64,000 nucleotides of DNA from contig NZ_JAPNTZ010000019.1 of the NCBI RefSeq assembly GCF_026626335.1, positions 1 to 64,000 of the forward strand, read 5' to 3'. Of the stretch, positions 15,844 through 44,580 are shown piece after piece. Source of the stretch: Paractinoplanes pyxinae (GTDB lineage Bacteria; Actinomycetota; Actinomycetes; Mycobacteriales; Micromonosporaceae). Numbering within the stretch: position 1 is the first letter of the stretch; each line of letters starts with the position of its first letter. The notes under the pieces are model-generated. The model was not told the origin of the DNA. It worked only from the letters and a program-made list of their open reading frames with translations, and did no database searches. The translations under genes and the position numbers were made by a program.

Positions 15844-16464
15844 ATGCTCGCGATGCAGTACGAGATCACGCTTCCCGCCGACTACGACATGCGCATCATC
15901 CGCGATCGCGTCGCCGCGTCCGGTCATCGGCTCGACGACTACCCCGGGCTCGGTGTGAAGGCGTTCCTGATCCGGGAGCGTGGCGTCGACGGGGCCACCG
16001 CGAACCAGTACGCGCCGTTCTATCTCTGGGCTGACGCGGCTGGCGCGGCTTCCTTCCTCTGGTCGGGCGCCGGGTTCACCGCGATCCTGCGCGACTTCGG
16101 CCGGCCGGTCGTGCAGACCTGGATCGGAGGCACCGCCCATCAGGCGCCCGATGGGGCGGCGCCTGCTTATGCCGTACGACGGAAGACCTCGCTGCCCGGC
16201 GACGGTGACCCGGCCGAGATCGCCCGCACTGCTGACACCCGGCTCGCCCAGGCCGTGAGCACCGGCCAGGCTCAGCTGGGGGCGTACGGCATCGACCCGC
16301 GCACATGGGAACTCGTCACCTTTACCCTCCACCCGGAACATCCCGGCCCGGTTCCGGACGGGTCCGAGCTGTTCCAGGTGCTGCACGTCGCCGCGCCCGA
16401 ACGCCGGCATCTGCCCGAACGTGTCGAGAAACGCCTGTCCAACAAGGAGCACGCTGATGTCTGA
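15844..16464 (+). CDS. DUF4865 family protein
   Basis: The 206-residue protein begins MLAMQYEITLPADYDMRIIR and has the family pattern DDYPGLGVKAFLIRERG, NQYAPFYLWADAAGAASFLW, and FTAILRDFGRPVVQTWIGG. The family is found in actinobacteria and proteobacteria beside cupins and oxidoreductases. It resembles antibiotic-monooxygenase-fold proteins but has no established role. It follows the cupin by 9 bp and overlaps the next gene by 8 bp. Confidence 0.88.
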   Translation: MLAMQYEITLPADYDMRIIRDRVAASGHRLDDYPGLGVKAFLIRERGVDGATANQYAPFYLWADAAGAASFLWSGAGFTAILRDFGRPVVQTWIGGTAHQAPDGAAPAYAVRRKTSLPGDGDPAEIARTADTRLAQAVSTGQAQLGAYGIDPRTWELVTFTLHPEHPGPVPDGSELFQVLHVAAPERRHLPERVEKRLSNKEHADV

Positions 16465-17122
16465 CAGCTTGCTGATCCTGATCGCCGGCCCGTACGCGTC
16501 CGGAACCGGCGGCGACCCCGAGCTCATGCGGCAGAACCTCCGCCGGCTCGAGACCGCGGCCTGGCCCCTGTTCCGGGCCGGCCACCTGCCCATGATCGGC
16601 GAATGGGTCGCCCTGCCCGTGCTCGACAGCGCCGGCGCGACCGGCCCCACCGATCCGCTCGTCGAGCAGGTGCTCTATCCCACCGCCGCCCGCCTGCTGC
16701 AACGCTGCGACGCGGTCCTGCGCCTACCCGGCGAATCCCGCGGCGCCGACCAGGACGTGGCCATCGCCCGCGAGCGCGGCATCCCCGTCTACTACGCCCT
16801 TACCGACGTCCCCGGCGTTTCCGAAGTCTCTGGCGTTTCCGACGCCGCCCGCCACTCCGATCACTCCGGCTTTCTCAGCGCCGCCGGCCACTCTGACCGC
16901 CCCGGCGTTCCCGACGCCGCCAGCCACTCCGGCGTTCCCGGCGCCGCCAGCCACTCCGGCGTTCCCGGCGCCGCCAGCCACTCCGGCGTTCCCGGCGCCG
17001 CCAGCCACTCCGGCGATCCCGACGCCGCCAGCCACTCCGGCCGCCTCGGCGATCCCGACGCCGCCAGCCATTCCGGCCACGCCGAGGGTTATTCCGTCGG
17101 CGAAGGCTCGGCCGCGGGCTGA
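16457..17122 (+). CDS. DUF4406-like (nucleoside deoxyribosyltransferase fold) protein with repeat tail
   Basis: The start is ATG 16457 inside the DUF4865 end, giving 221 residues. Residues 1-120 are a DUF4406/deoxyribosyltransferase-like domain: LLILIAGPYASGTGGDPELM, PMIGEWVALPVLDS, RCDAVLRLPGESRGADQDVA, and GIPVYYALTDVPG. A normal member ends about there. The remaining 100 residues are a Ser/His/Gly/Ala-rich tail made of nine-residue units, consensus VPGAASHSG. Four DNA copies are almost identical and others are degenerate. The tail overlaps the 3' end of the convergent SDR gene by 34 bp. Repeat expansion after the domain is complete suggests a dispensable, disordered extension. Confidence 0.82.
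   Translation: MSDSLLILIAGPYASGTGGDPELMRQNLRRLETAAWPLFRAGHLPMIGEWVALPVLDSAGATGPTDPLVEQVLYPTAARLLQRCDAVLRLPGESRGADQDVAIARERGIPVYYALTDVPGVSEVSGVSDAARHSDHSGFLSAAGHSDRPGVPDAASHSGVPGAASHSGVPGAASHSGVPGAASHSGDPDAASHSGRLGDPDAASHSGHAEGYSVGEGSAAG
16816..17083 (+). repeat. 27-bp in-frame tandem repeat at the end of the DUF4406-like gene
   Basis: The unit encodes VPGAASHSG (DNA begins GTTCCCGGCGCCGCCAGCCA). Three consecutive copies from about 16930 are identical, flanked by copies with Asp in place of Gly and by degenerate copies upstream (VSDAARHSD, LSAAGHSDRPG). The array stays in frame throughout, and its period is a multiple of three. Confidence 0.85.
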
Positions 17123-18477
17123 CCATCGAGCAGCTTGAGTCGCGACTCGAGCGATGCCCGGATTCCGGCGACCGCGTCGGCGCCGACCGCCAGGCGAAGT
17201 GGCGGTTCCGGCATGGACACCACCTCGAGAACGGCGTCGGCCACCCGGTTCGCGTCGCCGAAGGCGGAGGCGGGCAGCTGCGAGAAGTCGCTCAGGAACT
17301 GGCCGACCGTCGGCTCGTACACCTCGTCGGGCGCCACCACGTGCAGCGAGGTGGCGAACTCGGTGGCGAACACGCCCGGCTCGACGATGGTGACGCGCGC
17401 TCCGGTGGGGGCGAGTTCCTGCGCGAGGGCCTCGCTGAACAGTTCGACGGCGGCCTTCGAGGCGGAGTAGAGGCCGGACGACGCCCACGCGAACTGACCG
17501 TTCAACGACGACATCTGCACGATTCGCCCTTTCGATGCGCGCAAGGCGGGCAGGGCCGCGCGCAAGACGCTCAAGTTCGCCAGCACATTGGTGTCGAACA
17601 ACTTGCGAGCTTGCGCATCGCTGATCTGCTCGACCGCCCCGAACAGCCCATAGCCGGCGTTGTTGACCAGCACGTCCAGCCCGCCCGCGGCATTGATCAC
17701 CTCGCTCAGAACCGCCTGCGCGTCCGGCGCCGTAACGTCCAGAACGACCGGAGTCAGGCGAGCGCCGCCGACGTAGTCCGCACCGCGCCGCTCCGCCTGA
17801 GCGTCGTTGTCCACCGCGCTCAACATGTTGGCGTTCTGCGCGATGTTGTCCGCCGCGCTCAACCCGTGCACGTTCCGCGCGATGCTGTCCGCCACGCTCA
17901 ATGTGTGCGCGTTCTGCGCGATGTTGTCCACCGCGCTCAACACTTGCGCGTTCCGCGCGATGCTGTCCGCCACGCTCAATGTGTGCGCGTTCTGCGCGAT
18001 GTTGTCCACCGCGCTCAACACTTGCGCGTTCTGCGCGATGTTGTCTGTCCCGCTCGACTCCTGCGCGTTCTGCGCGATGTTGTCTATCGCGCTCGACTCC
18101 TGCGCGTTCTGCGCGATGTTGTCTATCGCGCTCGACTCCTGCGCGTTCTGCGCGATGTTGTCCGCCGCGCTCAACTCGTGCACGTTCTGCGCGATGTTGT
18201 CCGCCGCGCTCAACTCGTGCACGTTCTGCGCGATGTTGTCCGCCGCGCTCAACCCGTGCGCGTTGTGCGCGATGTTGTCTGTCGCGCTCAACTCCTGCGC
18301 GTTCTGCGCGATGTTGTTCGGCTGGGCGGGGATCGTGCGGGCGAAGTCGGCCACGTCGGCCAGGCGGTCGGCGCGGCGGGCGACGGCGATGACGTGGGCG
18401 CCGCGGGCCAGGGCGCGCTCGGCGACCAGGCGGCCGAACCCTGAAGTGGCGCCGGTGATGAGCCAGGTCTCTGACAT
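17089..18477 (-). CDS. Short-chain dehydrogenase/reductase with a 13 x 13-residue repeat insertion
   Basis: Start ATG 18477 (MSETWLITGATSGFGRLVAE) gives 462 residues. Both halves of a classical SDR are intact: the nucleotide-binding TGATSGFG and HVIAVARR in residues 1-40, then after the insertion VVLDVTAPDAQAV, the NAG motif DVLVNNAGYGLFGAVEQ, the catalytic Ser in IVQMSSLNG, and the YxxxK pair in GLYSASKAAVELF. Residues 55-223 are thirteen head-to-tail copies of a 13-residue unit, consensus NIAQNAQELSAAD. The array is placed between helix alphaB and strand beta3. Removing it leaves 293 residues, the normal size. The gene is divergent from an XRE regulator, a common SDR arrangement. Substrate is unknown. 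Confidence 0.88.
   Translation of the reverse strand: MSETWLITGATSGFGRLVAERALARGAHVIAVARRADRLADVADFARTIPAQPNNIAQNAQELSATDNIAHNAHGLSAADNIAQNVHELSAADNIAQNVHELSAADNIAQNAQESSAIDNIAQNAQESSAIDNIAQNAQESSGTDNIAQNAQVLSAVDNIAQNAHTLSVADSIARNAQVLSAVDNIAQNAHTLSVADSIARNVHGLSAADNIAQNANMLSAVDNDAQAERRGADYVGGARLTPVVLDVTAPDAQAVLSEVINAAGGLDVLVNNAGYGLFGAVEQISDAQARKLFDTNVLANLSVLRAALPALRASKGRIVQMSSLNGQFAWASSGLYSASKAAVELFSEALAQELAPTGARVTIVEPGVFATEFATSLHVVAPDEVYEPTVGQFLSDFSQLPASAFGDANRVADAVLEVVSMPEPPLRLAVGADAVAGIRASLESRLKLLDGQPAAEPSPTE
17809..18315 (-). repeat. 39-bp coding tandem repeat (13 copies) inside the SDR gene
   Basis: Read on the minus strand, each 39-bp unit encodes one 13-residue block beginning NIAQ, NIAH or SIAR. 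Neighbouring copies are often identical: two VHELSAAD blocks, two QESSAID blocks, and the pair QVLSAVD/HTLSVAD-SIAR repeated as a 78-bp unit. That pattern points to expansion by slippage or unequal crossing over, in multiples of a codon. No interspersed spacers exist, so it is not a CRISPR array. Confidence 0.93.
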
Positions 18478-18544
18478 GGGTTTCTCCTTGCTTCGGATGT
18501 CGCTTCCATCCAGCCACGACGGGAAGCCGTCAGATGGCCTGGAA

Positions 18545-18563
18545 GTGGCCCTCTGAGGGCCAC
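18545..18563. promoter_or_regulatory. Perfect 9-1-9 palindrome between SDR and XRE genes
   Basis: GTGGCCCTCTGAGGGCCAC is a perfect inverted repeat around a single T. It lies 67 bp from the SDR start and 43 bp from the XRE start in the 129-bp divergent region. It is the probable operator of the adjacent XRE regulator, by position. Confidence 0.6.
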
Positions 18564-18606: not shown

Positions 18607-19491
18607 GTGGCGCACAACGACGAACTGAGCAAGTTCCTGCGGGTACGGCGGGCCGCCCTCACACCCGAGGCGGCCGGTCTGCCGGCGCCGGGTGGGCGTC
18701 GCGTGCCGGGGCTGCGCCGCGACGAGCTGGCGCTGCTGGCCGGGGTGAGCGTCGACTACTACACGCGGCTCGAGCAGGGACGGCCGATCACGCCGTCCGA
18801 GGAAGTGCTGGACGCTCTCGCGACCGCGTTGCAGCTCGACCCGGCCGAGCGCGCCTACCTGCACACCGTCGGCCGGGCCTCACCGGCCCGGCGCCGGGCC
18901 ACGTCCAGGGCGCAGTCGGTGCGGCCCGGGCTGCTCGCCCTGATCGAGCAGCTGGGCGACACCCCGGCGTTCGTGCTGGGCCGGCGCACCGACGTGCTCG
19001 CGGCCAACGTGACCGCCCGGCGGCTGCTGGCCGACTTCGCCGCCATGCCGGCCCGGGAGCGCAACGCGGCCCGATGGCTGGTGCTCGACGAGGGCGCCCG
19101 GTCGCTGTTCGGCGACGACTGGGAACGGGTCGCGTCCGACATCACCGGAGTGCTGCGCATGGACGCCGCCCGGCACCCCGACGATCCCCGGACCGCCGAT
19201 CTGGTCGGCGAGCTGTCGATCAAGAGCCCGCACTTCCGCCGCTGGTGGGCCGGCCGCAAGGTCGTCGAGTTCGGCCAAGGCCACAAGACACTGCATCACC
19301 CGCTGGTCGGCGACCTGTCCCTGCGTACGGAGGCGATGACCTTCCCGGGCGACCCCGACCAGATGCTGATCGTCTTCCTGGCCGAGCCCGCGTCCCCCTC
19401 ACGGCACGCCCTCGACCTGCTCACGGCCTGGACCGCCACGGCCTCACCGCAGGCCGGCTCACGCGAGGCAGGCCGTCCGCACCGGAAGTGA
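18607..19491 (+). CDS. XRE family regulator with MmyB-like ligand-binding domain
   Basis: The 294-residue protein starts with GTG 18607. HTH at residues 8-72 (PGLRRDELALLAGVSVDYYT, LEQG). MmyB-like domain at about 105-275 (TPAFVLGRRTDVLAAN, WLVLDEGARSLFGDDWERVA, HKTLHHPLVGDLSLRTE). It is the second member of this family in the window. It probably controls the divergent SDR gene and itself through the palindrome at 18545-18563. Confidence 0.92.
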   Translation: MAHNDELSKFLRVRRAALTPEAAGLPAPGGRRVPGLRRDELALLAGVSVDYYTRLEQGRPITPSEEVLDALATALQLDPAERAYLHTVGRASPARRRATSRAQSVRPGLLALIEQLGDTPAFVLGRRTDVLAANVTARRLLADFAAMPARERNAARWLVLDEGARSLFGDDWERVASDITGVLRMDAARHPDDPRTADLVGELSIKSPHFRRWWAGRKVVEFGQGHKTLHHPLVGDLSLRTEAMTFPGDPDQMLIVFLAEPASPSRHALDLLTAWTATASPQAGSREAGRPHRK

Positions 19492-20304: not shown

Positions 20305-20487
20305 CCCTCGCCGGGGTGGCGAGGCGGCGACGTGGCCGAGGTGGCGAGGCGGCGAGATGGCGACGTGGCCGAGGCCGAGGTGGCGACGTGGCGAGGCGGC
20401 GAGATGGCGACGTGACCAAGGCCGAGGTGGCGAGGCGGCGAAATCGCGACGTGGCCAAGGCCGAGGTGGCGACGTGGCCGAGGGCGT
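20305..20487. repeat. Degenerate G/A-rich direct repeats
   Basis: About 180 bp consist of imperfect copies built from GAGGTGGCGACGTGGC and GAGGCGGCGAGATGGCGACG, in shuffled order. The plus strand carries mostly G and A with interspersed C. No frame looks coded: the periods vary and there is no domain. It lies between the YdeI-like gene and the ClpX-type zinc-finger gene. Confidence 0.7.
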
Positions 20488-43659: not shown

Positions 43660-43679
43660 CCAAATCTTTCTATCACCGC

Positions 43680-43885
43680 CGCGCCCTCACCGCCCGCACC
43701 CGCATCGCCGCGCCCACACCGCCGGCACGCCGCGCCCGACACCGCCCGCACCTGCACCGCCGCGCCTGCACCGCCCGCACCGCCGCGCCCGAGACCGCGC
43801 GCACTCGCACTGCCCGCACCGCCGCGCCCGACACCGCGCGCGCCCGCACCGTCGCGCCCGCAGATCGCGCCCGCACCGCCGTCGC
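43680..43885. repeat. C-rich minisatellite 1 (CACCGCCGCGCC-like units)
   Basis: About 200 bp upstream of the S9 gene consist of irregular copies of ACCGCCCGCACC and GCCGCGCCCGACACCGCGCG. The plus strand is nearly free of A and T runs. No reading frame encodes recognisable protein. It abuts the IS3 remnant. Confidence 0.7.
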
Positions 43886-44242: not shown

Positions 44243-44309
44243 GCGAAGGGCTTGACCTAGCTCGATCCTCCAAAGATCGACCGATGCCAGACCCGGGCGG
44301 TTAACACCA

Positions 44310-44580
44310 CCGCGCGCTCACCAGCGCATGTCCGCCACCCGCACACCTACCGCCGCGCACCCACCACCGCACGTCCACCACCGCGCACTCAGCACCGCGC
44401 GTCCGCTACCGCACGCTCACCGTCGCGCATTACCGCCGCTCCTCCATCACCGCGCACGCACCATGGCTCGCCCAACGCCGCGCACGCACCATCGCTCGCC
44501 CAGCGCCGCTCACTCACCGGCGTAACTCCACCACCGCGCACCACCAGCGCTCGTCCACCCGCGCAGCCACCCCCGCACCC
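44310..44580. repeat. C-rich minisatellite 2 (CACCACCGCGCA-like units)
   Basis: About 270 bp of irregular direct repeats built on CCACCGCGCACCCACCACCG with variants such as GCACCATGGCTCGCCCAACG and GCACCATCGCTCGCCCAGCG. No coding signal. It ends 10 bp before the -35 box of the aldo/keto reductase promoter. Confidence 0.7.

Follow-up and report, generated by a model that had tools for sequence, protein, structure and literature searches.

A tandem array of thirteen short units is encoded within the conserved domain of an SDR enzyme of Paractinoplanes pyxinae, raising the question of whether it is a module with a selected role in this protein or the product of a duplication process that the enzyme tolerates. 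The locus was analysed within a 64 kb stretch of contig NZ_JAPNTZ010000019.1, referred to as a whole as the window.

The interrupted SDR gene and its divergent regulator

The SDR gene (17089..18477, minus strand) encodes a 462 aa protein and runs from an ATG at 18477 to a stop codon at 17089-17091; the original prediction left the strand unstated, and the plus-strand frame over the same interval is not the gene. A Shine-Dalgarno sequence, AAGGAG (18484..18489, minus strand), is located 6 nt 5′ of the ATG. The protein matches the Pfam profile adh_short (PF00106) at 138.6 bits, and its top NCBIfam subfamily is NF006114 (PRK08263) at 220.9 bits, under the cut-off of 290 for that model. Classical SDR enzymes carry a TGxxxGxG cofactor motif and the catalytic motifs NNAG and Ser...YxxxK, and alignment bears out the original prediction that these are intact on either side of the array. 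The N-terminal part (residues 1-54; 18316..18477, minus strand) comprises beta1, the TGATSGFG loop (residues 8-15), alphaA, beta2, alphaB and an extra RTIPAQPN, with T8, G9, A10, G13 and G15 invariant in a seven-row alignment. The C-terminal part (residues 224-462; 17089..17808, minus strand) begins with an extra NDAQAERRGADYVGGA and continues from beta3 onward, carrying NNAG (272-275), S324 and YSASK (337-341), of which N272-G275, S324, Y337 and K341 are invariant in the same alignment. The protein departs from the family in that residues 55-223 split what would be one uninterrupted domain of ~250 residues, and a genome profile scan reads the gene as two places (profile positions 3-47 and 13-189). 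The presence of fold motifs on both sides of the insert indicates that SDR family membership survives the interruption. Core pN/pS values of 0.32 and 0.36 against the orthologues at loci L002 and L026, respectively, point to constraint on the enzyme, and we infer that its product is made and active.

A gene encoding an MmyB-like regulator with MLTR_LBD and HTH_31 domains (18607..19491, plus strand; PF17765 at 198.9 bits) diverges from the SDR gene, and the ORF lists show it to be syntenic in L002 and L026. In actinomycetes, MmyB-like regulators have been described as paired with adjacent SDR or MDR genes (PMC3406030); the gene pair here is the same and is divergent, as in several of the described cases, whereas the portions of that report at hand make no mention of a repeat insert such as the one in this SDR. 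Between the two genes lies a perfect palindrome, TGGCCCT-CTG-AGGGCCA (18546..18562). One of its half-sites is invariant in four aligned relatives, where the other is partly conserved and placed ~15 bp further apart, marking the palindrome as a candidate operator whose spacing appears to have changed in the P. pyxinae lineage.

Structure and variation of the array

TRF and translation of the minus strand (window positions 18315..17809) resolve the array (17809..18315, minus strand) into thirteen 39-bp units encoding residues 55-223, each resembling NIAQNA[QH]ELSAAD, and alignment places them between alphaB and beta3 with no gap and no change of frame, all as the original prediction had it. The array scores 532 in TRF at period 39 (13.1 copies) and 700 when read as period 117, the top score of the 64 kb window, which against a best score of 702 in any other sampled set places the array far beyond chance. 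Ten distinct unit sequences are found among the 13 copies, and the flanks are continuous in frame. At the DNA level copy 3 matches copy 4 exactly, as 5 does 6 and 9 does 11, and between copies 8 and 10 two of 39 sites differ. The predicted duplication of one-unit and two-unit blocks is thus real and recent, and the array may, as proposed, still be expanding. The NIAQNA portion of the unit is mostly constant across copies, and the proposed consensus gives way at residue 7, which is Q in six copies, H in six and N in one. Head-to-tail units, a period divisible by three and a maintained frame identify the array as a coding (intragenic) minisatellite, as does its variation between relatives, five of which align without it. 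Proline is absent. The copies are free of stops in the SDR frame, as had been claimed; four of the five other frames are open too, so that openness by itself is weak proof.

Variation among the copies looks neutral. Independent changes number 16 nonsynonymous and 3 synonymous, against an expected synonymous share of 24% (p = 0.59), and pairwise pN/pS among copies is 1.53. Third positions in the SDR frame are 95% GC, which, together with the constant NIAQNA portion, could reflect either constraint or recent copying. Pooled over 12 arrays chosen by hand, pN/pS between adjacent copies, which are non-independent, is 0.70 and so under 1. In frame +2 of the minus strand, 11 of the 19 changes are synonymous where 30% would be expected (p = 0.012 before six-frame correction). 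An overlapping gene in this frame was considered and set aside, as it is the SDR frame in which the flanking sequence codes and as the signal becomes weak once six frames are corrected for; these conservative changes are left unexplained by the neutral reading. Single-strand folding of the array DNA gives a z of -3.9 relative to shuffles that destroy the repeats, a result that fits slippage but falls short of proof.

An AlphaFold2 model of the 462-residue product was built from the window protein and six relatives (seven rows), the insert being without a homologue, and has a mean pLDDT of 68.2 and a pTM of 0.57. The core is mostly confident, with 18 of its 28 ten-residue blocks at 76-97 and ten below 70; residues 1-50 fall in blocks of 88-94, and values are also low in the substrate region (~371-410) and at the C-terminus. 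All blocks of the insert (residues 51-240) lie at 41-68 and are modelled as helices at 56-70, 77-140 and 146-230. Seven rows without a homologue of the insert support no closer reading of the array than probably helical or loosely ordered.

The original prediction had suggested a solenoid or a polymerising or partner-binding arm, for which the model offers only long helices of low confidence. A selected structural arm, in which short helices would serve oligomerisation, scaffolding or partner binding, is in keeping with an array that is in frame, proline-free and stop-free, with the modelled helices at 77-140 and 146-230, and with the 95% GC3 of the array and the retained catalytic motifs. It is, however, unlikely in light of the low pLDDT of those helices (blocks 41-68), the neutral-looking copy changes, the existence of array-free orthologues, and the unrelated arrays in unrelated enzymes, described below, which suggest a general process. 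Searches with the unit also returned no convincing match: none among 72,556 plasmid records or 50,697 phage records, a best E of 0.31 (a ryanodine receptor) among PDB chains, and a best E of 0.0047 in PHROG, to a family of unknown function. A protein search with the array across 67 genomes of the genus matched three genomes; apart from the array, the three matches are to distinct repeats located in other genes. It is similarly improbable that the array has a selected function.

Orthologues and the origin of the array

Orthologues lacking any insertion had been named beforehand as one half of a result that would refute the prediction, and the insert is absent from all five relatives that could be aligned (L002, L026, L003, L027 and L028). 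Eleven loci were tried, of which six were left unaligned: L029 and L030 were without a suitable ORF and L004-L007 failed the cofactor-motif regex. Two of the insert-free proteins are syntenic orthologues of ~76% identity, one of 266 aa in genome G016 (L002) and one of 272 aa in Actinoplanes sp. TBRC 11911 (L026). Three more distant SDRs also lack the insert. In its rpoB reading frame, the P. pyxinae genome is 97.7% identical to TBRC 11911, 96.8% to G016 and 93.6% to a Micromonospora, over 927, 917 and 920 residues, respectively, which makes Actinoplanes its very probable genus. Removal of the array leaves the predicted 293 residues, but this is not the normal length, as the three orthologues with clear starts have 266, 272 and 275 aa; in alignment, ~15-20 non-repeat residues flanking the array are also extra.

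The array DNA is present once in the P. pyxinae genome. Ten SDR-like ORFs were collected by a narrow regex scan of the fetched loci, and the distance from cofactor loop to NNAG is 59-69 residues in nine of them and 256 in the array-bearing SDR; none of the other nine has an array at the alphaB-beta3 loop. For the P. pyxinae genome 123 adh_short places were listed, from 150 of 200 candidates scored and with some places covering part of the profile only; of these, this SDR alone is split by a large gap. The proposal of a special SDR module is not supported, given the orthologues without it, the lack of a homologue in the genus genomes, plasmids, phages and PDB chains searched, the neutral-looking variation, and the unrelated arrays of comparable unit length in other conserved enzymes and linkers of this genome.

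The array is instead probably a coding minisatellite, lineage-specific and near-neutral, that a tolerant loop of a classical SDR accommodates. In the P. pyxinae lineage, tandem duplication in 39-bp steps would have acted on a short coding segment of the alphaB-beta3 surface loop, with replication slippage or unequal recombination as the likeliest mechanism. Growth to 13 copies would have been possible because the 39-bp step is divisible by three, the units are stop-free in frame and the loop faces outward, and motif retention together with the AlphaFold core suggests that the Rossmann core can still fold. The product would be an SDR bearing a polar arm rich in Ala, Asn, Ser and Gln, under little or no sequence constraint and presumably tolerated, not selected, and the same process would yield in-frame arrays of unrelated sequence in the loops or linkers of other proteins, both in this genome and in relatives.

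A different reading is that the SDR is decaying, the array marking a dispensable enzyme whose frame has been kept by chance. The lineage-specific insert and neutral-looking changes agree with decay, and the 123 listed adh_short places permit redundancy, but we doubt this explanation given that motifs, Shine-Dalgarno sequence, divergent regulator and inter-gene palindrome are all intact, that 462 codons are stop-free, and that most of the nucleotide-binding core is modelled confidently. It is very improbable that the copy number, or the array itself, is an assembly artefact: the genome is a draft in 45 contigs and identical neighbouring units can collapse or expand, yet the ten distinct units and in-frame continuous flanks argue against this, as does the finding that minisatellites are no scarcer in the single-contig genomes of the relatives G016 and G029.

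Repeats are also found in frame within protein genes, as in this SDR, in the case of Rickettsia palindromic elements, which form one dispersed mobile family, whereas no common unit was found among the arrays described here. In a search for a shared DNA seed across 14 arrays (same strand), a single 9-mer recurred in three or more of them, but no 11-mer and no 13-mer did. PARCELs (PMC2996958), described in the text available from that report as 25-residue repeats with dyad symmetry that have probably spread horizontally and occur in ORFs without assigned functions, likewise consist of tandem repeat-coding DNA within ORFs, but the SDR unit has 13 residues and occupies one locus without sign of spread. 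A repeat-coding element akin to either, mobile or gained by horizontal transfer, could account for the ~15-20 extra non-repeat residues beside the array but is the least probable origin, given the single genomic copy, the plasmid and phage records without a match and the lack of an 11-mer shared by three or more of the 14 arrays.

Arrays in other proteins and genomes

Unrelated units of 10-18 residues interrupt other P. pyxinae proteins. Hosts were listed where the array scored 120 or more, each flank extended over 50 codons or longer and GC3-GC2 exceeded 0.25 or 0.22, and were assigned by eye and with Pfam after this coding-flank filter. An NRPS adenylation domain, spanned by PF00501, holds about thirteen 10-residue repeats just before its YTSGSTGKPKG motif (L113 7030-7428, plus strand), and the C-A linker of that protein holds a second array, also of 10-residue units. 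In a PPDK/Rph-like enzyme, 14-residue units lie within the ATP-binding PPDK_N domain (L116 13162-13426, minus strand), which is matched in two stretches; the top NCBIfam model is rifamycin phosphotransferase, below cut-off and over a segment only. A penicillin amidase spanned by PF01804 holds a 13-residue array, and a GGACT-like protein is likewise interrupted by an array. Arrays also lie in the linkers of a BTAD regulator and of an ABC ATPase pair, the latter with 17-residue units, and twice in an AAA_16 protein that appears LuxR-like by eye, while a helicase and a response-regulator linker were added as hosts from G016. Ordinary arrays are present as well, including RCC1 repeats and linkers rich in Gly/Asn or Pro/Thr. 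Extrapolated from 1.2 Mb, the four interrupted catalytic domains found in addition to the SDR would amount to tens per genome, a figure drawn from a non-random sample in which the amidase stretch (C1:460001-480000) was included with its array already known, biasing the host count.

Orthologues of three of these hosts were searched for in 40 genomes each, with E limits of 1e-40 (amidase), 1e-15 (GGACT) and 1e-100 (ABC). All six GGACT orthologues are without the insert, their flanks no more than 12 bp apart, and one of them (G002) has a stop within the N-terminal match. Six orthologues of the ABC pair (87-93% identity) were found, five of which have 12-93 bp at the site against ~200 codons in P. 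pyxinae; the sixth has 354 bp there, a linker of low complexity without any TRF array. Two of three amidase orthologues lack an insert, and the third (G001, L165 2319-2465) carries a 33-bp array of 4.5 copies with an unrelated 11-residue unit at the same site, as deduced from the offset between L165 and L168. Two unlike arrays at one site are predicted by a tolerant loop combined with a general duplication process, and this was seen once.

TRF on 1.2 Mb of P. pyxinae found 93 arrays with three or more copies, and 56 of these are strong (score at least 120), or ~47 strong arrays per Mb. The period is divisible by three in 44 of the 56 (p = 5e-12 against 1/3), an excess that mostly reflects arrays lying in genes. 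Samples of 400 kb each contained 25 strong arrays in G016 and 24 in G029; the latter belongs to a different family of the same taxonomic order, so the high density extends beyond Actinoplanes. The control is thin, consisting of one main Streptomyces genome and non-random stretches: contig C1 of Streptomyces NRRL F-5122, of equal GC, has 1 strong array in 420 kb (one-sided p = 8e-7), giving P. pyxinae a density ~20 times higher, and with 1 more in 108 kb of its other sampled contigs the pooled count is 2 in 528 kb, ~1/12 of the P. pyxinae density. No array with a score of at least 120 was found in some 62 kb of Actinacidiphila or 25 kb of other Streptomyces.

With slightly less than even confidence, we propose that a genome-wide process in Actinoplanes and some relatives keeps seeding in-frame arrays into enzyme surface loops independently and sometimes repeatedly at one site, which would leave tens of catalytic domains per genome with helical or disordered arms of de novo origin, a portion of them perhaps taken into service. 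Discussion of coding minisatellites in bacteria has mostly centred on proteins of the surface or of host interaction. The arrays here are dense and lie in metabolic enzymes, inside their catalytic folds, with insert-free orthologues for comparison, providing a natural experiment in how much foreign sequence folds tolerate and how new protein segments arise. As the profile scan reads the SDR as two partial matches, such genes may also be split or missed by automatic annotation. No description of minisatellites in Actinoplanes enzymes was found among the titles and abstract openings listed for open-licence papers. In Plasmodium, hydrophilic low-complexity inserts occupy surface loops of globular enzymes and are thought to be extruded with the fold unharmed (PMC2705789); judging from the text available from that report, these resemble the SDR array as lineage-specific hydrophilic repeats in variable loops of conserved proteins, but belong to a eukaryote and are asparagine-rich simple repeats, in contrast to the 30-54-bp units in the hosts of this GC-rich bacterium. 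By analogy, the SDR array may work like a low-complexity surface-loop insertion of this kind. Coding tandem repeats are also known from Legionella pneumophila Philadelphia, for which the accessible part of one report (PMC2639597) gives 26 intragenic repeats with copy number partly variable between strains; the arrays here differ in interrupting catalytic folds and number ~47 strong per Mb, a count not directly comparable as selection criteria differ.

The window itself contains a second coding minisatellite less than 1 kb from the SDR gene, a 27-bp repeat of ~9 residues per unit (16803-17074) that forms the end of the convergent neighbouring ORF (16421-17122, plus strand). A 39/47-bp repeat (20328-20483) lies just upstream of an OmdA-family gene (20208-19576, minus strand), and TRF detects further repeats at 43674-43881 and 44305-44565.
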